Source: Branchinecta lynchi (Eukaryota; Arthropoda; Branchiopoda; Anostraca; Branchinectidae). Taken from it: 64,000 nucleotides of DNA. Each line of letters begins with the position of its first letter. Position 1 is the stretch's first letter. Shown here in pieces: positions 9,601 through 49,228 of the stretch. The notes beneath the pieces were generated by a model. The model did no database searches and had not been told where the DNA came from. It was given only the letters and a program-made list of their open reading frames with translations. Position numbers and translations under genes: made by a program. Location: the NCBI GenBank assembly GCA_023053575.1, contig JAKZAP010000014.1, forward strand, positions 8,742,001 to 8,806,000, in the 5' to 3' direction.

Positions 9601-12600
9601 ATTCCAACGACAAAAGGCGGCACTTCACTCGACATAATATGCACAAACATGCATGAATTTTATCAAAAACCCAATTCCCTCCCCCCGCTTGGCGGAAGCT
9701 ACCATTTCACGTTATCACTAAACCCAATACAAGGCCTGATTCCAAAGTACAAGTTTGATGAATTTAAATACCGTCCAATTACCGATGGTGGCCTGCTTAA
9801 GTTTGGGGCATGGCTGTCAGAGGAGCAATGGGATGATGTCCTTGCTGCTGATGATTCTAATAAGAAGGCCGAAATTTTTCAAGAAAAGCTTCTTAATAAT
9901 TATGTCCTTCACTTCCCAGAAGTCAAAAAGAAAAGATGTTCTAATGATAAGCCGTACGTGAACGATGCACTGAAAAATTTAATCCGCCAAAAACTAAGGC
10001 TATTCTGTCAAGGAAAAATTGAAGAAGCTAACCTATTAAGAAAATGTATAAAAAAGCAGATCCGAAAAGCTTCATCCGAGTACTACCGTAACAAAGTAAG
10101 CGAACTCTTCAAATCCCGACCAAAGCAGTGGTACAACACAGTCAGGAAAATTAGCGGTAAAACGGTCAAAATTGTTGATTTCAACCTTGATGAACCGCCA
10201 GAAACCACAGCTAATTCGCTAAATAAACACCTTTCGGCTATTGTGCAAACTCTTCCTCCTCTCCCAAGTAATACCTCTTTTTCCCCATTACCAGATCACG
10301 TTATCCCAGCAATACTACCTGTGGATGTTGAAGAAAAAATCCGTAAACTAAAGAGAACTTCAATATGCCCCCTTGATATTCCGATTGATTTGGTCCAAGC
10401 ATTTCCCGATAAACTATCAAAACCTTTGTCAGATATTTTCAACACGATAACCAAAAGCGGTTTATTCCCTGATTGCTGGAAAAAAGGGTACGTTACTCCC
10501 ATACAGAAGAAACTAAACTGGATTTTAGTTGAGTCCGTCCTATTACTCTCACACCGATATTTTTTTAAATGTATGAGAGTTTTGTAGCAGATTGGCTCAA
10601 AGAAACGATCCATGATTTAATAGATGAAAACCAGTTCGGAAACATGAAAGGTTTATCGACGACACATTATCTGGTTAAACTTCTCGACACTGTATATAAA
10701 CTACTTGATGAGCCTGATACATGGCTGAATCTTATTTTAGTTGACCTCCAAAAAGTGTTTGATCTTGTTAGTCACAATCTTTTAATTGAAAAATTATTAA
10801 ATGAATTTAAAGTACCACCTTTTCTAGTTAATATCATTGCATCTTTTCTGTCAAATAGAAGTCAAGTTGTAAGGTATAAAAACATTTATTCAGATGCACT
10901 TCCTATTTCTTGCGGTGTTCCACAGGGAACGCTCTTAGGTCCTCTGTTATTTTTGGTAATGATTAACAATCCTGCTAACGAATCAGCCGATCGCTGGAAG
11001 TTTGTGGACGACATGACATTACTTGAAAGGTGCAGAAGGAACATAAAGAGTACCGCAATGGAAATACTTGACGATATCGCTGCCGAAGCAGCCGAGTCGA
11101 AAATGAAAGTTAATTCACAGAAATCGAATATAATGACCATAAGTTTTCTTAAATCAAAGCCATCGTTCACTACTCCAGTACCAAATGAAATATTTACAAC
11201 AAAGACCAAACTTTTGGGGATCACACTGACGAATGATCTGAAGTGGGAGGCTCACATTTGTTCCATTATTAAACAAGCCAGTGCGTCTCTGTCTCTCCTA
11301 AAACTGTTGTCCAAATTTTCGTGCCCTAAATCACATGTTCTCCGCCTTTACGTTACTTTCATCCGTCCGCTACTTGAGTATGCTTGTCCGGTTTGGCACT
11401 TTGGCCTGACAGTAGATCAGTCTGATAGGCTTGAAACTATTCAGAAGAGAGCTTTGAGAATCATCTACCGCCAGGGCAAAGTGCCTTATATCCTCCTCCT
11501 CAAAGAATTCCGCCTCCCCACTTTAGCAGCCCGACGTCTTACTCTTTGTACTGGTTTCGGGAACAGTCTGCGTTCCCACTCATGTTTTGAGCACCTGTTT
11601 CCTACCCCATATTGCTCGCCAAAACCTCGACTACCTCGAGCTGTAGCACAAAAAGTTTCGGTTCTTAACCCTGTTTGTACAAGAACCGATCGCTACAGAA
11701 AGAGCTTTGTACCATCTTTTGTTGAAGTTTTGAACAATTGATCAGTTATTTCCCTTTAATGTTTTAATTAATAATAATAATAATACAAAGCAAGAGAAAA
11801 GGCTTTCGCCTCTAAATAACTCTAAGAAATTTTGAGTAGTCGAACTGATCAGAGTTAAAAATCTCATCAACAATGCACTTAAAACTATTGATCGATTCAG
11901 CATTAACCGCATCTTCGGTAAGGCTGTTCCAAGGATCAACAATTCGGTTGCCAAAACCCCACTTAGAAACGTCCTTGTGGAATCTTGACTTTGTAAGCTT
12001 GTACGCATGCCCCCGATGATGACGGTTAATGCTGAATCTTACTAAATCAGTCACTTCAAAATTGTCATAACTTCCATTGATGATTAATTTGAATGTTTCA
12101 ATCAGGTCTCCTCTAAAAAATCTGTATGCAATGGAGGGAAGGCACAACTTGGCTAATCTCACTTGGTAGGGGAGATCGCGCAGATCTGGTACGAACTTCG
12201 TAGCTCTCCGTTGGATTTTTTCATAAGCCTCAATGTCATAATTGTAATATGGCCTCACTGTGGTTTGGCCATATTCAATGATCGGGCGAACCATCGACTT
12301 GAAAAGAAGTGAGAACAAGCCATCCTGCTTAAAAGTAAAGTTTCTTCGAATTACACCAAGGATTCTATTACACTTTTTCATGGTAAGGTTGTAATGTTGC
12401 GAGAAACGCAGATCCCCATCGATCAGGATCCCTAGATCCCGTTGGGTCATGCATTCGGGTATCGTTTGGCTGTTGAAACTATAGAAAGTTTTAAAGTGAG
12501 AGGGTCCCAGGCGAAGATGGTGACTTTTTTCGACGTTGACTTCCATCAGCCACACTTGCATCCAAAGTTCAATTTTGTGAAGATCATTTTGGAGTATCTA

Positions 12601-30657: not shown

Positions 30658-30784
30658 CTACCTTACAATCAGTTTGAACAGGAATGACAGGAATACAAGT
30701 GGAATGTACAGGTTTAAACTGGAAGCTGAGTTGCACCAGTGATCAAAGTTACAGAAGCACCACGTTGTATTGTCAAAGTGATTC
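30658..30784 (-). CDS. Ly6 gene exon 4 (last cysteines, GPI signal, stop)
   Basis: The acceptor cttcttcttcttccag is strong. The exon enters in phase 2 and encodes the sequon DNTTW, then CFCNFDHWCNSASS and a 16-residue hydrophobic tail, ending in TAG at 30658-30660. The intron before it is 9.7 kb. The exon was too small to be obvious alone and was found by searching for the expected CFC...CN ending. Confidence 0.9.
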
Positions 30785-39700: not shown

Positions 39701-42700
39701 AGGATTTGGTACAATTGATTAGAGATTCGGTATATTTTGCCCCCCCCCTCCCCCCAACGAAAAAGCACTTGCGACGCCCCTGCCTCCTTGATTACAGCCT
39801 TCGTCTCAAGACTGCTTTCCGTCGGTCGGCCGGTCAGTCCGGTAATCGCGAGATAGTGTACTTCCAGGCGGGCCAGAATGATGAAACTTACCAAGCATAC
39901 TAGGGATATGACCAGGTTGACCTGTCAATTTTCACTTTCCGGATATGGCACGCATAGCTTACGAACGAGTTACCGGAACTGGATGAAGCTTCAGAACTGA
40001 CAAGAGCGCATGTCCAGGATGTTCCATTTCAGGTCCGGACTAGATCAAGAAACTATGAGGGTCAAGGGGGGGGGGGGGCTTGTCGCACGCTTAGAGTCAA
40101 GGAATAGGGAGGGGACTTAAATTGGCGGGAAGGACAAGCATGAGCCCCAGATTTACCATTAGCGGAACCGGACCGGACACAAGTAGTTTTCTCCATACCC
40201 TGCTAATTCTTTTGCCCAATTTTTACGTAGTTTCATCCATCATTTATTTCTGGTCATATCTTGTAAGTGTATTAGTTAATTTGTTTCGTGTCAGTGTATT
40301 TCGTAAATTTGTATTCCTCTTTTAGCTATTTGGATTAAGCTTGATTGATTGATTGAAATAGTGTCCTCATTAGTTCATTAAAGAGAGCATATCAGCGGAA
40401 TAACTAAAACCATTTCAGCACTTTCTTCGTTTGAGGGGATCAACTTACCTTTTGATATCTAGTTCCTTAACGTCATTGAACGTGTAATGACCTAAACGAA
40501 CATCTTCAGCAGATGCCCTGCATCCTTCATAAGTGTCTGCTGGAATGTCACGTCGAACAGAAATGAGGTTACTTAGGCAATCTCGTGTCACGACGGTATC
40601 AACTGTAACAGAGAAAATATCATTAAATTTTCTACTGAGTGAGGGAGCATTTTATATCTGTTCCAAATCGTTGTGACGTCTACACTCAGCTACGACCTTG
40701 TCGACTACAAGTGAGATGTGAGAAGATTCATTTAAGGGAATTTAATAATTATCATAACCATTAATAAGAAAGAATATGCACTGACAAATATATCACAATC
40801 TTGGCATGATTTACTGACATTCAGTACCAGTTTTTTTTTTCATACTATCTTGTCCTTTATTTTTATTTCTACTTGTCTTTTAATGCAGAACCAAACATTT
40901 TCAATGAATGAATTAATCAGATGACTTCAAGCTTCACTCCTACATTTCCTACTCCTATTACTAGTAAGATCAATATCAGCAGTCACTTTGCTCTCAACAA
41001 ACATTTTTCCTTAATGGGTACTTTAATTTTCCAGGGGCATCAAAAACCACCAGAACTCACTTTGTATCCAAAATTGCTCGATCTGGGAGGCATAAAGAAT
41101 AAGATCAAAGGTCTCTATGGCATTACAAATACTGAATATTTATTGGACTACTTGATTCACACAAGCAAATCTTCTAGATTTACGATCTTTGCAAAACCCC
41201 TTTAATATTTGCAATAACCTATAACCAAGTTCAGATATGGGTCCAGCATACATGTCTACTCAAACATCTCGTCTCTTACTTTCGACCAACTTGACCACTT
41301 GACCAAATTCCTCCTTCCAGCAGGAGGCTACTCTAGGCAAACTGGATGCAGAGCAAAAGAGCTGGTGACATTCACAGGCGAAGCTTACGATACAAATTTC
41401 CGGGTTTTGGCAAATTTCGCCAGCTTATCTGTCAAGGAAATACCCTCACCCTATGTCGACTATATCATTGGGTTTTAAAACTTCATGCTAAATTTCCGGT
41501 TGTTGTCGGAATCCGGGCTAACTACTTGTCCGCCAACTTCAGATTAAACTTCAACTTTTCACAAATTTTCCGGTTTTACCAGATTCCTTGTGAAGCAATT
41601 GTACTGCAAGATAATAAATTTCATATCCGGATTCAGCATTTGGCCTCCATATTCTAAAAGGAGGAGCTCTAGAGATGAGAGCTCCTTTTCTTCTGTACAA
41701 GAGACATTATTACTTTTTTGAGGAGGGGGGGGGGGTCTTAAAGTAGGCTATATTTCTCCTAGATTGCAATGTAAACCTAAGTAGCAGTGGATTTGTGAAA
41801 TATCTCTCAAGCTACGTATGCTGGAGGACTCCACTTTGAAGGTCTTAAGTTGAAGCTCTTAAGCTGAAGTTGTACAAGGCCCTTGTCAGACCAGTGGTTG
41901 ATTTTGGAATGTGCTTAGCATCACCAGGGTTTAAGGGTGACGTAAAGCTCCTAGAAGGAGTGCAAAGGAGAGCCACAAGGATAATAACAAACATGAAAGA
42001 TAAATCCTATGAACAAAGTCTGAAGGAGCTGAAACTAACAACACTTGTTTTTCGACGACGGAGAGCTGACATGCTTATGACATATAAGCTGACCTCTCAA
42101 GAACAACCCCCAATTTGTATGCCCATTGTCCAGAGCGTTGGCGCAGATAGAAGGGGACACTCTAAGAAGCTGTTTAAGCCTTCTGTCAGAACCCGACAAC
42201 GACAACAGTTCTTCTCGTGTCGAGTTGTCAACACATGGAACAGCCTGACCAACGACACGGTATCAGCACCCAACGAGGAAGCTTTCAAAAAGTTGCTAGA
42301 TGAAGAGTGGAATGATGTGCCTTGGAAATACAACTGGGATGCATCTGATGCCTAACAAATCATCACATTATCAATGACGGAGCGATTCAAAAGATCAAGA
42401 CTGATCTTAATTCGCTCCGAAGTGCGAATTAAGGTAATTAAGATACTGGGGTGAGCACTGACAGTGCAGCTAGACATTCACTGATCACGAACTTACCTCC
42501 TTTCTTTTCAACAATCTTCACACATTTATCATTCCAGCTAGGGCAAGTATGGGACCAGTACCACCTCGAATCAAATGGATCATTGCAGCCTGGATGTGTG
42601 CCAACACAACGGTAGCACCACAGACCTTGACCTGAAAAATTTCCCCAATAAAGTAGAAGAAGTTATAAATTACTTCTTGCATAATTCAATTTCTGATTTT

Positions 42701-44230
42701 CCAGTCTTAGGGGGACATTCAAAATTTCTTAAGAAAACTAGTAGGCTATGAACTCATTTGTTGAATTTTATCCCAGTAAGTGGCTTAAGACAGGACTGGC
42801 AAAGCTAAAACCCTTCCAAAGCAGCATACCTCTACTGAACGCATTTTAAACTCCAAATAGTGGTATTTTTTAAAGTCTTGTATTTTACAGAGCATTCTTC
42901 ATAAGTATGTCCACACATATTCCTGGCACTACTTGGGTTGTGGGCTTACAGATGAAACATCCCCATAGCAAAACATCCCCGATGAAACATCCCCAGTGAA
43001 ACATCCCTGTAGTGATACGGTCCCATGGCAAAACGTCCCCATGGCAAAGCATCCCCAAGACTGAAGAGGACCCTTGTCATTAAGAGTGGAAATTTCACTG
43101 AAAATGTCCTAGCTAATTTTCCATTTATTTTTATATATGATTCCCAGTTAGCTTGGGCTATTTTCTATTCCCATTTCCTAAAGAAGTATTTAATTGAATG
43201 TCAAATATGCCAAGACAAGAATGGCAACTCCAGTGCTGTCTCATCTCTTTGCTCCAGACAAAACTTTAGCTAGGAGAAGAGTAAGCTAACACCACTTTTG
43301 GTTTGTCCGGGGTTTGTCCGCGATTCATCCCACAATCAAAACATCCCCATGACAAAACCATCCTGTGGCTAATCGCCCCCATGCGAAACGTCTGTGGCTA
43401 AAATGAACCAATAATCAAAACTCTGACAATTATTTTTTGTGTTTGGGGGGGGGGATATCCTGATTTACATCAGATAGTCCAAGACCAGAGCATGGAAATC
43501 AGAGATTAAAACGTAATTGGTATAAAATACATTTGAAGGGATACAGTGAATGTCTGAAGCAACTGATTGCATGTCTGCCATTATCTGCCTATAAAGAATA
43601 TTCCTACATCTGTAATGCAAACTCTGAAGTTGCAAGTGAGATTTGCATTTTGCGAATTGCAGACCAAGGCAAACTTGGGCAAACTGAAATATCTTGGGGA
43701 CCTTTCACAACTGGGATGTTTTGCTCAGGTTTTGCCGTGGGCAGGCTGTGGGGACATTTTTCTGTAGGGGCTCCTAGAACTGATGATAGATTTTGCCAGA
43801 AGTCCTGGCAGTACAATCAGAATATGAAAAACTCTACCTTGTCAACAATAACCAAATGAATTGAGCAACAAAAGCAGGCGCCACATTAAAAATTAAATCC
43901 ACTAAGCACAAGTTTTTCCTGTTTAGAAAGTTAAGAGGTAGTTCTCCAAATGGGATAATTGAAGTTGCTAAAAGCTTCTTTACTTTGTTAGAGGTTTCTT
44001 TTTTAGCCTAGACCCGGGACCCCAGCTGGACCCCAGCCTGTGGCACAGGCTTGGCACCAGCTTGGCACGTCGCTGAAAAATATCCTAGCTGACTAACTCG
44101 TTTACAGTAATTTATTTTACACAGTTCATTTTCCCTAAAGAAGTTTACTCTCATCTAAAAGCTTGCGCATACCTTGTACAAGGGTCAAAATACCAAATAG
44201 GCATGCAATGAGTAATTTAAAGATATCCAT
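30658..44230 (-). CDS. GPI-anchored Ly6/uPAR three-finger protein, quiver (sleepless)-like; complete gene
   Basis: Four minus-strand exons (44173-44230, 42497-42631, 40449-40602, 30658-30784) join with GT/AG sites and phases 1,1,2 into 157 residues. Residues 1-20 form a signal peptide (LLIACLFGILTLV core). The mature part has ten cysteines at 25, 28, 35, 49, 56, 73, 92, 125, 127 and 133, opening LWCYRCVG, with GCNDPFDS and TRDC, and closing WCFCNFDHWCNSASS. The tail is hydrophobic (LYIPLVFLSFLFKLIV), a GPI-attachment signal with the anchor site probably just after C133-N134. N121-T-T is a glycosylation sequon. The spacing, DPFDS motif and CN ending match quiver/sleepless-type proteins, which in insects modulate potassium channels and nicotinic receptors at the neuronal surface. 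The function here is inferred. The start codon lies at a transposon junction. Confidence 0.92.
31550..34110 (+). repeat. Repeat family A, long tandem array
   Basis: It starts with the CAAGTGCCATATAGCGATCG terminus and a (GTCT/GTCG)n run. Diverged units of about 255-285 bp follow; the landmark ccacataagctagga recurs at about 32388, 32643 and 32904, with decayed versions at 33186 and 33555. Each unit has one or two poly-G runs after gatccgg. A (TTA)n microsatellite lies at about 33892-33916. It occupies intron 3 of the Ly6 gene. Open frames here are repeat shadows. Confidence 0.82.
31836..31906 (-). pseudogene. tRNA-Asp-like sequence (tRNA-derived SINE head or tRNA pseudogene)
   Basis: The minus strand has an A-box-like TAGCTCAGTGGTAG, an anticodon loop CTGTCAA (GUC, Asp, with U33), and a B-box GGTTCGATCC, ending CCA. 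The T-stem pairs at four of five positions, but the acceptor and anticodon stems do not pair. It is not a functional tRNA. A partial second copy with the same A-box lies near 32162-32185, each embedded in a family A unit. Confidence 0.6.
34111..34985. other. Ly6 intron 3 sequence without recognised elements
   Basis: Apart from another family A-like start (caagtgccatatgagctttc at 34239) no structure is seen. Confidence 0.4.
34990..36380 (-). repeat. Repeat family B, reverse copy with about six internal units
   Basis: The 3' module in reverse (gaccaaaggtttcgatggga) lies at about 35325. Units containing tctaatcaacttcaaataaa recur at about 35445, 35585, 35715, 35855 and 35993. The 5' module in reverse runs to 36372. 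It is framed by a further repeat (aatctgggcccagctgccca) at 34985-35320 and 36445-36690. Confidence 0.8.
36801..38354 (+). mobile_element. hAT-like non-autonomous element, 1.55 kb, perfect 8 bp duplication
   Basis: CCTACTGG lies at 36793-36800 and 38355-38362. Terminal inverted repeats are CAGGGGCGTCGCAAG at both ends, adjoined by G/C homopolymers. The interior, especially 37560-38290, is dense in the motif taccgaat and its variants. No transposase frame is visible. It lies in intron 3 of the Ly6 gene. Confidence 0.88.
38456..39782 (-). mobile_element. Second, inverted copy of the CAGGGGCGTCGC hAT-like element, truncated
   Basis: Reverse-complement similarity to 36850-38250 runs through this region. 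It ends on the right with the intact terminus cttgcgacgccCCTG at 39782. The left terminus is missing. Together with 36801-38354 it makes a 3 kb inverted arrangement. Confidence 0.78.
38529..38955. repeat. 213 bp perfect-looking tandem duplication
   Basis: The block from 38529 is repeated from 38742 with no difference that I can see by eye over about 213 bp. It lies inside the inverted hAT-like copy. Either a very recent duplication or an assembly artefact. Confidence 0.85.
39800..40145 (+). repeat. Repeat family A, single copy
   Basis: It has (GTCG)n at 39820, then gtacttccaggcgggccag and tgaaacttaccaagcatac, and a poly-G run at about 40067. It directly follows the hAT-like copy ending at 39782. 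Confidence 0.65.
40449..40602 (-). CDS. Ly6 gene exon 3 (second and third fingers)
   Basis: The acceptor is tctgttacag and the donor is AAAAG|gtaagt. Its 154 bases run from phase 1 to phase 2. It encodes DTVVTRDCLSN, then IPADTYEGCRASAEDV and LGHYTFNDVKELDIKR. Confidence 0.92.
41395..41660 (-). repeat. Repeat family B, partial copy
   Basis: It contains aatccgggctaactacttgtccg and cttcagattaaacttcaact in diverged form, about two units. Confidence 0.55.
41850..42450 (+). mobile_element. LINE 3' fragment with terminal hairpin
   Basis: A 161-codon frame (41870-42355) reads MYKALVRPVVDFGMCLASPG, EGVQRRATRII, RQRQQFFSCRVVNTWNSL and ends EEWNDVPWKYNWDASDA. The 3' UTR contains a perfect 10 bp stem hairpin (42406-42433). 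It sits in intron 2 of the Ly6 gene, 141 bp beyond exon 2. Confidence 0.85.
42406..42433 (+). ncRNA. LINE 3'-UTR hairpin
   Basis: CTTAATTCGC-TCCGAAGT-GCGAATTAAG forms a 10 bp stem with an 8-base loop. The copy at 49729-49754 keeps the loop and changes paired bases together. This is probably the RNA structure recognised by the LINE reverse transcriptase; not a separate gene. Confidence 0.65.
42497..42631 (-). CDS. Ly6 gene exon 2 (first finger)
   Basis: The acceptor is atttttcag and the donor is GGAG|gtaagt. Its 135 bases enter and leave in phase 1. It carries five cysteines (CYRC, GCNDPF, TCPSW, KCVK) and the WYWSHTCPSW segment. Confidence 0.92.
42950..43400. repeat. AAACATCCCC short repeats
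   Basis: At 42955-43075 the decamer-like motif AAACATCCCC(A) recurs about seven times, and again at 43335-43400. The block lies in intron 1 of the Ly6 gene. Confidence 0.7.
44173..44230 (-). CDS. Ly6 gene exon 1 (signal peptide)
   Basis: ATG is at 44230-44228. The 58 coding bases give MDIFKLLIACLFGILTLVQ and split the next codon in phase 1. The donor is CAAG|gtatgc. The A of the ATG is the last base of the hAT-like element, read on the minus strand, and the TG belongs to its target-site duplication. Confidence 0.88.
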
Positions 44231-44609
44231 AGTGTTGGGCGATATTCGATATCGATAACGATATATCGATATATCGGACCAAATATCGATATCGAATATC
44301 GAAACGTAAGTATCGATATCGAAAACGATATTTTTTCACTCATAATTATTGTAAATAATCCAACATAACCTACATTTACATATCCGAAATTGGAGCAATA
44401 TGTTTTCCGTAATTCAGTTCTTATTTATCAGGAGTTTGAGATGATGCAAGATGCTATTTAACGACAATTTCGTTACTAAATTTGGGCGAAACAAGACATA
44501 TCCTGTAGCGAAACATACTAAAGAAATATCGATATCGATATATCGAATATCGAAAGTGAAAATATCGATATATCGATATATCGAAAAATCCAGATATCGC
44601 CCAACACTA
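44230..44609 (+). mobile_element. hAT-like MITE at the Ly6 start codon
   Basis: GATATCCA is duplicated at 44222-44229 and 44610-44617. Inverted ends are TAGTGTTGGGCGATAT. The sub-terminal zones are arrays of ATCGATATCG palindromes. It is 380 bp without coding capacity. A reverse-orientation relative lies at 48934-49228. Confidence 0.9.
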
Positions 44610-44618
44610 GATATCCAT
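44607..44618 (-). other. Three-codon upstream ORF created by the transposon
   Basis: On the minus strand this reads ATG GAT ATC TAG. The first eight codon bases after the A are the pre-insertion start of the Ly6 gene; the stop is supplied by the terminal TAG of the hAT-like element. It sits about 380 bp upstream of the present start codon. It would be translated only if transcription starts to its right. Confidence 0.8.
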
Positions 44619-45839
44619 TTTGATAATGCTAATGAAATATTTTTCGCCGTCCGGCGTTGCAAAAATCCGGACTAACTTTCTGAAAAATTTAAAATCCCTC
44701 CTAGCCTAAAAGAAGGGTTCCGAAGGGTCGGAGCCAGAGTCGGAGCCCAAGAGCCAGACATTTTTTGGAACTGGACAGATTATCAGGAAAGTATAGAAGG
44801 AAACCAAAATATAACAGGAAAAGATTTAGTTCAAACTAAGGCTATCCGGAATAGTAAAAAAAATCATGGTGAAACTTCAAGCCTAAATGGTACTACCTGT
44901 CGGAGTGCCATATTGTGATCTTTTCGAATGCATTTGTGAGAACTGACAAGATTTCCACTTCATATGTTTTTCGTTTCGCAACTTAAAGTGTCAGCCACTT
45001 TCCCTTTTTGTCCCACCATTTGCATATTTGTTTTGCCTCTCGTGTTGTCCTCTAGTCACCAGTGTGTCCAATGTCCCGGACTTCCGGACGTTTTTGGTCT
45101 GGCTTCATCTTTCGAATCCATCCTGACGGAAACGCACATCATCAAGAAAAATCTGGAAGGCCTGGCTTTAACCTCGCCTGGTACCTCCCCGGGTTCCGTG
45201 TGCATTAACGTTACTTTACAAACAAGAATTACTTTGTACTTTTCCCAGACAATGAGCATACAGAGAATACAGACTAACGTCTACAACCAGCTGCTATAAT
45301 ATATAAGACACACGAATGGGACGAAGTCATATTCTGTTTACGTAATGCATGGTTCGTGCGCTTGCTCTTCCAAGTTTTTCCCTGACCTTTTTTGGTGATT
45401 TCCCTGACCTTTTCCAGCAGTTTTCCAACACCTTTCGATTACCTCAGTGAACAAATTAACTCATTTACTGAAAAAACAAGAGCTGGTAGCTCATATGGCA
45501 CTTGCAAGGCTGCGTCAGAGGATTAAAGTATGAACTCGTCAATTCGTGGGTTTGTTGTGATCATATGTAAGCAAAATCCTTGAGATAAGAACGGTCATGG
45601 GTCCTTGGAAATCACGAGAATGTATTGTTCGTAAAATCTATTTTATTTATGCATTTGGCCGTGATGATGCGCACTTTAAGGGCGCTAGAAATTCATCTGT
45701 AATGAACACTCCTGAAGCACAAATGATGATAAGCTCATGGGAATCAAGAAAATGTATATTTTGCTCAAAATTAGTGTTTGTACTTTAAGAAAGCAAAACC
45801 CGTGAGGCAAAAATGATCACTGGCCCTTGGGGATCATGA
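44619..45839. other. Region upstream of the Ly6 gene
   Basis: It should contain the pre-insertion promoter and 5' UTR of the Ly6 gene. No TATA or clear first non-coding exon is identified. A 111-codon frame (44964-45299) shares cttccggacgtttttggtct-type sequence with 53090-53190 and is therefore repeat. Confidence 0.4.
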
Positions 45840-46920
45840 ATATATATAATAATATAATATTTATTTGTGACCCACTGTACAGATTTAAGATAGTGGAGTA
45901 ATGAAAGAAAAGAAATAAAGATAGTACAACATATCACACACAACAACAAAAAAGCACTCAATGAAAAAGCCGGATAAGGCCGTGGTGCGCACCTAGGCGG
46001 AAACACGCGTCAGCACCAATATTGGTCTGCAGATTTTCCAGCGAACATAAGATGTCGCTAGCTCCGTAACGATTTACAAGGCGTCTATTTCGGACCGATC
46101 TGGGTAAATACAAGAGGAATTTGCAAAATCAAAAATAATCCACCCACATTTGCTTAAGATCAGTCTTTGTAAATATAGGATATAAACCAGACGCAGACAA
46201 AACGGCATGGTCGCAAAAAACTAGAATAAAGTTTAGCCAGTCCACGTCTGCTGAAACGACCACGATTAGCAACGATTTTTGCGTACCCAATTCTTAATTT
46301 ATCTTTAGTATCAGATAAAAACTTCCTCCGGATACTAGCAAGAGAATCACAAACAGATATACCCAGCCACTTAAACATCTTTACTCTGGGTACAGCGAAA
46401 CTCCCGCAATTCAGAGAACTAGCACATTGATCATTATTGAAAGACAAATATTCACACTTAGCATAAAGCAAGGCCAATATCTTTAAACAGAGATCCAACC
46501 AGACGAACGTTTCGCTCAAGTGAGCTTTTTGAACGGCTAATCAGAAGGAGGTCATCAGCATATGCTAGATATGAAAGTTCACTGAACCCGAAAAAACAAC
46601 TCGATGGGATCTTGGTCAGAACACTTGCGATACAAGCATTAAATATGTACGGCGAAAGGACACCTCCTTGTCTGACCCCGCACTTCACTGGAATATTCCC
46701 GAAAATATGACCATTAGATTTCAGTCTTACATACGAATTAGAATACCAGAAACGTAGCACAGATATAACTGAAATGTTTATACCAAGCTGATACAGTGAC
46801 AGCAGAGCTTGTGAATGAACAGCGGTGTCAAACGCTTTAGAAGTGTCCAAAGCACAAATATGTAATGACTGGCCTTTGGTATGCACATCTTTGAGGAGAA
46901 CAGCAAGCGCCCTGCCTAAC
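45840..46920 (-). mobile_element. LINE 3' half with RT palm, frameshifted
   Basis: The minus strand has ALDTSKAFDTAVHS (motif A), KCGVRQGGVLSPYIFN (motif B) and YLAYADDLLLISRSK (motif C) in one frame (46458-46886). It continues in another frame (46160-46519) with KCEYLSFNNDQC and FKWLGISVCDSL. The 3' end is TATTTATTTGTGACCCACT-like in plus orientation at about 45860. The frameshift in the 46458-46519 overlap inactivates it. Confidence 0.83.
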
Positions 46921-47049
46921 GTATTTTTTTACTTTTCGGTTAAGAAACGCACTTTAAAGGTGCTAAAAATTAGTTTAACACCTTTGAGTTAAATGTTAAC
47001 TTTGCTTAAAAGCATTTTCTGTACTTTGCTTAAGATTAGTACTTTAAGG

Positions 47050-48933: not shown

Positions 48934-49228
48934 GAGTGTTGGGCGATATTTGGATTTTTCGATATATCGATATTTCTTTAGTATGTTTCGCTATAGGACA
49001 TGTCTCGTTTCGCCCAAATTTACTATCGAAATTGTCGTTAAATAGCATCTCGCATCATCTCAAACTCCGGATAAATAAGAACTGAATTACGGAAAACATA
49101 TTGCTCCAATTTCGGATATGTAAGTGTAGGTTATGTTGGATTATTTCCAATAATTATGAGTGAAAAAATATCGTTTTCGATATCGATATTTGGTCCGATA
49201 TATCGTTATCGAATTTCGCCCAACACTA
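48934..49228 (-). mobile_element. hAT-like MITE, second TAGTGTTGGGC copy
   Basis: The ends are GAGTGTTGGGCGATAT and cgcccaacacTA, and the interior is the reverse complement of 44300-44530. The flanking octamers ctaccagt and agtccagt match at five of eight bases, so this copy is older or the duplication has decayed. Confidence 0.75.

Follow-up and report, generated by a model that had tools for sequence, protein, structure and literature searches.

In elements of the hAT superfamily, the second base of each end is A and the fifth is G. Miniature inverted-repeat transposable elements (MITEs) of this superfamily are non-coding, shorter than 500 bp and present in many near-identical copies, with short terminal inverted repeats (TIRs) and 8-bp target site duplications (TSDs) of varied sequence; the defining hAT values listed in PMC2874221 are an 8-bp TSD and a TIR within 5-27 bp. 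Such an element can lie 5′ of a gene, as does the hAT MITE mMoshan upstream of peach PpCHI, for which a table in PMC13359793 lists >100-fold higher promoter activity. Here we describe a hAT-like MITE of 380 bp in the start codon of crim, a Ly6 gene on the minus strand of a 64,000-nt stretch (the window) of the Branchinecta lynchi genome (assembly GCA_023053575.1, contig JAKZAP010000014.1, positions 8,742,001 to 8,806,000 of the forward strand). Both elements were inserted 5′ of a gene; mMoshan, however, is placed by the same source 526 bp upstream of the ATG and had its promoter effect measured, whereas ours lies within the start codon and is read from sequence. Drosophila crimpled (crim) is a Ly6-like septate-junction protein, a function shown in the fly according to PMC3058042. 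We consider it very probable that the B. lynchi locus records a recent hAT-like, non-autonomous insertion at the crim start codon, that the coding sequence survived and the allele is tolerated, and that expression is likely reduced or rerouted.

Anatomy of the insertion and its family

Direct reading of the minus strand gave ...ATTATCAAAATGGATATC + TAGTGTTGGGCGATATC ... GAATATCGCCCAACACTA + TGGATATCTTTAAATTACTC, that is, flank, the two element ends and flank, so that the order is ATTATCAAA ATGGATATC, the 380-bp element TAGTGTTGGGCGATATC...GAATATCGCCCAACACTA, and then TGGATATC TTTAAATTACTC. The element (44230..44609, minus strand) is non-autonomous, has TAG...CTA ends and is bounded by a perfect 16-bp TIR (44230-44245 versus 44594-44609, 16/16). 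With up to three mismatches allowed, the window holds seven occurrences of the TIR 16-mer, where shuffles predict 0.48, and both exact matches are the ends of this element. The TSD TGGATATC is present as an upstream copy (44610..44617) and as a downstream copy (44222..44229) that supplies bases 2-9 of the coding sequence, and the two copies are identical (8/8). The rebuilt ATG (44228..44230) takes its A from the last base of the element and its TG from the TSD, in the context AACACTATGG, while the old ATG (44618-44616) now opens an upstream open reading frame (uORF) of three codons, ATG GAT ATC TAG (44607..44618), whose stop is the first three bases of the element and whose frame is shifted by +1 from that of the gene. 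A at -3 and G at +4 are found at both ATGs. The first-pass annotation of this DNA had described an insertion separating the A of the start codon from its TG, an ATG regenerated from the element's terminal base with the protein unchanged, and an original ATG closed by a stop from the element; TIR, TSD, the ends of related copies, direct reading and open reading frame (ORF) analysis confirmed this anatomy. The distance it gave between old and new ATG, 380 bp, needs correction to 388 nt (the 380-bp element plus the 8-bp TSD); the old ATG is out of frame with the gene. The predicted empty allele is ATGGATATCTTT.

Using the element as a query against the genome (575.7 Mb) returned 1961 first-look candidates. 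Forty of these, including the query locus itself, were scored, and each was full-length or close to it at 93-100% identity. The other 39 scored copies were fetched; being those closest to the query, they do not form a random sample. They end at corresponding bases, with a TAG start in 37/39 and a CTA end in 35/39. Among the 38 independent copies, a perfect 8-bp TSD was found in 33, the remaining five having 4, 1, 6, 4 and 1 mismatches. The shared ends and 8-bp TSDs of these relatives provide independent proof that 44230 and 44609 are the ends of the element. One fetched copy, L029 (C5:9142090), was left out of the independent set as a duplicate of L028 (C5:9157525), since the two lie 15 kb apart with a common TSD and common flanks and represent a segmental duplication, not two insertions. 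Its divergence marks the insertion as young and the family as recently active, because this copy departs from the 387-bp consensus of the 38 copies by only 6/380 substitutions (1.6%), three of them private, and one gap. The window also holds a second, internally deleted family copy of 295 bp (48934..49228, plus strand; 92% identity to the start-codon element over the longest matching piece), flanked by ctaccagt and agtccagt, which agree at 5/8 positions.

We label the element hAT-like because its 8-bp TSD, TIR length and end motif fit this superfamily: the 16-bp TIR falls within the 5-27 bp range, and the ends begin TAGTG, in keeping with the A2/G5 motif. It also resembles hAT MITEs in its short length, its lack of coding capacity and its many near-identical copies. 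It differs from them here in that a partner carrying a transposase and sharing its ends did not turn up at the 14 hAT-dimerisation loci sampled. The hAT dimerisation domain PF05699 gave 454 candidates in the genome, and all of the 150 scored were over the cut-off; in the 1 kb downstream of each of 14 sampled loci out of these 150, the best match to the TIR had 4-6 mismatches/16 (0/14 with the TIR). About ten of the PF05699 loci have identical scores and 469-codon open frames, and represent a recently active hAT family; judged by the 3′ side of the single copy examined (L078), this family is not the partner of our MITE. The 16-bp TIR was also found in six viral contigs, as one exact match each and in none as both ends, and we took these matches as chance rather than as element carriers.

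The crim gene and its first exon

The gene model comprises exon 1 (44173..44230, minus strand as are the others), encoding MDIFKLLIACLFGILTLVQ and ending in a phase-1 donor, AAG/GTATGC; exon 2 (42497..42631) and exon 3 (40449..40602), which were identified by homologue search, splice and frame joining and own-genome match; and exon 4 including the stop codon (30658..30784), placed by tblastn of homologues P0001-P0003, splice site and frame. Joined, the four exons give 474 nt, or 157 codons plus stop, with GT/AG at all introns and no internal stop, and the complete frame encodes a signal peptide (judged by hydrophobicity only) and a C-terminal CxC...CN. The product matches Pfam QVR (PF17064) with E 2.7e-10 and 41.5 bits against a cut-off of 27.3, while DUF753 is barely above its cut-off (26.0 versus 24.7) and UPAR_LY6 under it (18.8 versus 24.8). 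A protein search gave 82 matches of 83 candidates, led by Artemia franciscana (83% identity over 83% of the query) and followed by other branchiopods, and several of the 82 homologues are named crim. No second copy was found in the 575.7-Mb genome with exons 1-3 as query, which matched only the gene's own exons 2 and 3. The model shows an intact, single, four-exon QVR/crim-type Ly6 gene. Its likeness to Drosophila crim lies in the QVR domain and in homologues named crim by their sources, whereas the septate-junction function is that of the fly protein and orthology to the fly gene is putative. No solved structures of similar sequence were found.

That the exon at the rebuilt ATG is the first coding exon had been proposed in the first-pass annotation and proved credible. 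Among 107 ATG-to-phase-1-donor candidates on the minus strand (42632-64000), exon 1 was the sole one with a hydrophobic core and a fair donor, where the first threshold was set by exon 1 itself; its uniqueness held under looser cut-offs too, and across both strands of the window it alone passed the cut-off at its own level. Its phase fits exon 2, and the leader before the first CYxC is 24 residues long, compared with 20-62 in 20 chosen homologues (20-30 in 16/20).

Rebuilding the start codon

We propose that a short non-autonomous hAT-like transposon inserted recently at an 8-bp target beginning at the T of the crim ATG. Repair of the target would have duplicated TGGATATC, and the terminal A of the element together with TG would have respelled the start codon. 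The old A plus the 8-bp TSD make nine bases, after which the element starts with TAG, so that closure of the old start after three codons is automatic. We infer that the allele was tolerated with its coding sequence surviving and the old leader displaced by 388 bp. The rebuilt ATG and the closed three-codon uORF are one coincidence, not two independent ones. Rebuilding requires only that the TSD starts at the T of an ATG and that the element ends in A; orientation is irrelevant because both ends carry one inverted sequence. The A/TG register widens the protein-sparing zone by one base only, as insertions further upstream spare the protein too.

A genome census for ATG-N6-TAGTGTTGGGCG found 10 places (control 0), and one for CGCCCAACACTATGG found 5 (control 0). 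Six of the ten ATG-N6-TAGTGTTGGGCG places were followed to the far end, and three were true cases: the crim locus and two others, L092 (C1:6626115) and L093 (C5:20878133), which have a perfect TSD, the A/TGG register and a rebuilt ATG. The remaining three (L098, L099 and L100) were rejected for lack of a perfect TSD. The five CGCCCAACACTATGG places comprise the three true cases together with L094 (TSD 0/8) and L095 (no left end found), which were rejected as start-codon-type insertions. No recognisable gene was seen near L092 or L093 among the ORFs in 3.7 kb each, for which no database search was made; gene evidence among the ATG-N6-TAGTGTTGGGCG places exists for the crim locus only, the others having been given an ORF look at most. 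None of the 33 other perfect-TSD copies of the first sample is in the A/TG register, and we make no claim of an ATG target preference or enrichment for this family. Searches limited to open papers, for transposable elements or MITEs in connection with start codons, target site duplications and uORFs, returned none. The locus offers a clean, datable example of an insertion inside a start codon with an intact protein, and yields a rule that can be scanned for in any genome, namely that any element with TAG...CTA ends and an 8-bp TSD, when it inserts behind the A of an ATG, restores this ATG and closes the old one as a three-codon uORF. As the insertion is young and the gene intact, the locus lends itself to studying how a sudden leader change affects expression.

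Predicted consequences for crim expression

A leader crossing the element contains seven upstream ATGs (44618, 44516, 44499, 44381, 44375, 44366 and 44343), the last of which begins a 52-codon uORF (44185..44343, minus strand) that starts in the element and overlaps the rebuilt start. The RNA from 44630 to 44200 folds at -125.3 kcal/mol against a shuffle mean of -91.1 (z -6.45, 0/100 shuffles), into a hairpin formed by the element's own ends, whose AT-rich stem is lengthened past the element by the TSD palindrome GATATC. Leaders starting at 44618, 44609 and 44342 fold at -123.7, -116.4 and -40.2 kcal/mol, respectively. Upstream ATGs are absent from leaders that begin at 44342 or below, whose folding energies were -40 kcal/mol or weaker at the positions tried. 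A leader free of upstream ATGs requires either a transcription start within the final 112 nt of the element or splicing. According to the discussion in PMC2973947, translation drops between -25 and -35 kcal/mol and is minimal near -50 kcal/mol. The seven upstream ATGs, the overlapping uORF and the hairpin indicate that the insertion, although neutral for the protein sequence, is probably not neutral for expression, provided that the old promoter remains in use. Transcripts from that promoter would be poorly translated unless spliced, and crim expression from this allele is most likely reduced, or obtained through transcripts that begin within the element's final ~112 nt or splice past it. The effect on expression is likely less benign than the first-pass annotation supposed: the three-codon uORF it described is present, but its description of a minimal uORF and a neutral insertion is not supported as worded, given six further upstream ATGs, a 52-codon uORF that overlaps the rebuilt start and a highly stable hairpin.

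Another reading holds that the element itself became the promoter, took over crim and starts its transcription in the last ~110 bp, with a cluster of TATCGATA octamers acting like the Drosophila DNA replication-related element (DRE). Eight of the 11 TATCGATA in the window lie in the element (44250..44578, by motif count), where 0.003 would be expected per 380 bp, and the family consensus has eight and each of the 38 copies 6-8; of the others in the window, two are in the second family copy (48965 and 49181) and one is elsewhere. In Drosophila, as reported in PMC2605929, DREF has TATCGATA as its consensus, and BEAF binds clusters of CGATA. A start at or below 44342 would also give a leader without upstream ATGs, and the listed PpCHI effect (PMC13359793) offers a case of a hAT MITE with promoter activity. 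Against this stands the distribution of the motif. Twenty evenly chosen 10-kb stretches contained 11 TATCGATA, ten in two family copies (L055 and L071) and one elsewhere, so that 20/22 across 264 kb of this genome are in family copies and only two were seen outside the family against 4.35 expected (262 kb). The sampled background (262 kb, genes not sampled as such) gave no sign of TATCGATA as a promoter motif in this species, no TATA or initiator (Inr) consensus turned up in the interval 44900-44200, and the repeats may be mere transposase-binding sites. On balance, takeover by an element promoter is possible but unlikely. A broader form, in which the whole family is a portable leader-promoter cassette that, through its TAG...CTA ends and 8-bp TSD, can enter a start codon and spare the protein, silences the old leader at a stroke by closing the old start after three codons, and drives transcription from its last ~110 bp through its dense TATCGATA cluster, we regard as quite doubtful. 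DREF is held to descend from hAT transposases, although a literature search did not confirm this; if the cassette idea were true, this host factor and the transposase sites could have one ancestry.

It is improbable that the insertion is functionally neutral, with upstream transcription unchanged, the element crossed and ribosomes reinitiating after the three-codon uORF. The very short uORF, lying 388 nt from the next in-frame target, and the A at -3 and G at +4 kept at both ATGs would suit such a course, and low-GC stems can be tolerated in translation, as stated in PMC5784139. What argues against it are the six further upstream ATGs, the 52-codon uORF that extends across the rebuilt start, and hairpin energies of -116 to -125 kcal/mol, compared with minimal translation near -50 (PMC2973947).

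We judge it improbable that crim uses another first exon and that the insertion hit plain upstream or intronic DNA next to an unused MDIF exon. The N-terminus of the closest homologue, P0001 from A. franciscana, does not match exon 1, as this reading would have it, but the 21 kb of the window that precede exon 2 hold 107 candidates, of which the MDIF exon alone passes, and it has the correct phase into exon 2 and a conserved leader length. An assembly or chance artefact is hardly credible: although a single assembly was used, TIR and TSD are perfect, a large family has the same ends and TSD length, and the upstream flank occurs at full length at one genome place only (the other four matches being 34-56 bp), with no empty second copy or haplotig seen in an upstream-flank search of the same assembly.

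Several points weigh against a recent, tolerated insertion at the start codon of a functional crim that reduced or rerouted its expression. The mismatch of P0001 with exon 1 is one of them, and may reflect a mispredicted exon in P0001. A Trp found in 20/20 chosen homologues is Ser (TCG) at 42569-42567 on the minus strand; this may mean that the gene is not under full constraint. The substitution could stem from a change in this lineage, from an error or from constraint beginning to relax once the element had inserted. The intron position after exon 1 is read from the sequence of this locus. The AT-rich hairpin may hinder translation less than its energy suggests, in line with PMC5784139, and the evidence on expression is the genome sequence of one assembly.

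Upstream of the old ATG, an acceptor-like TTTTAAATTTTTCAG lies at about 44679-44690 on the minus strand, ~60 nt away, and crim may originally have begun with a non-coding exon farther upstream. An ATG-free stretch of 143 nt ahead of the old start was rejected as a signature of the old 5′ untranslated region, as 11% of random points look likewise and it is not significant. No Rfam families or tRNAs were found in the window. An ORF at 41849-42355 (plus strand) in crim intron 2 has no Pfam match and resembles the C-terminal part of a non-long terminal repeat (non-LTR) retrotransposon polyprotein. Reverse transcriptase domains (PF00078) of retrotransposons lie at 10569-11741 (plus strand) and 46458-46928 (minus strand).

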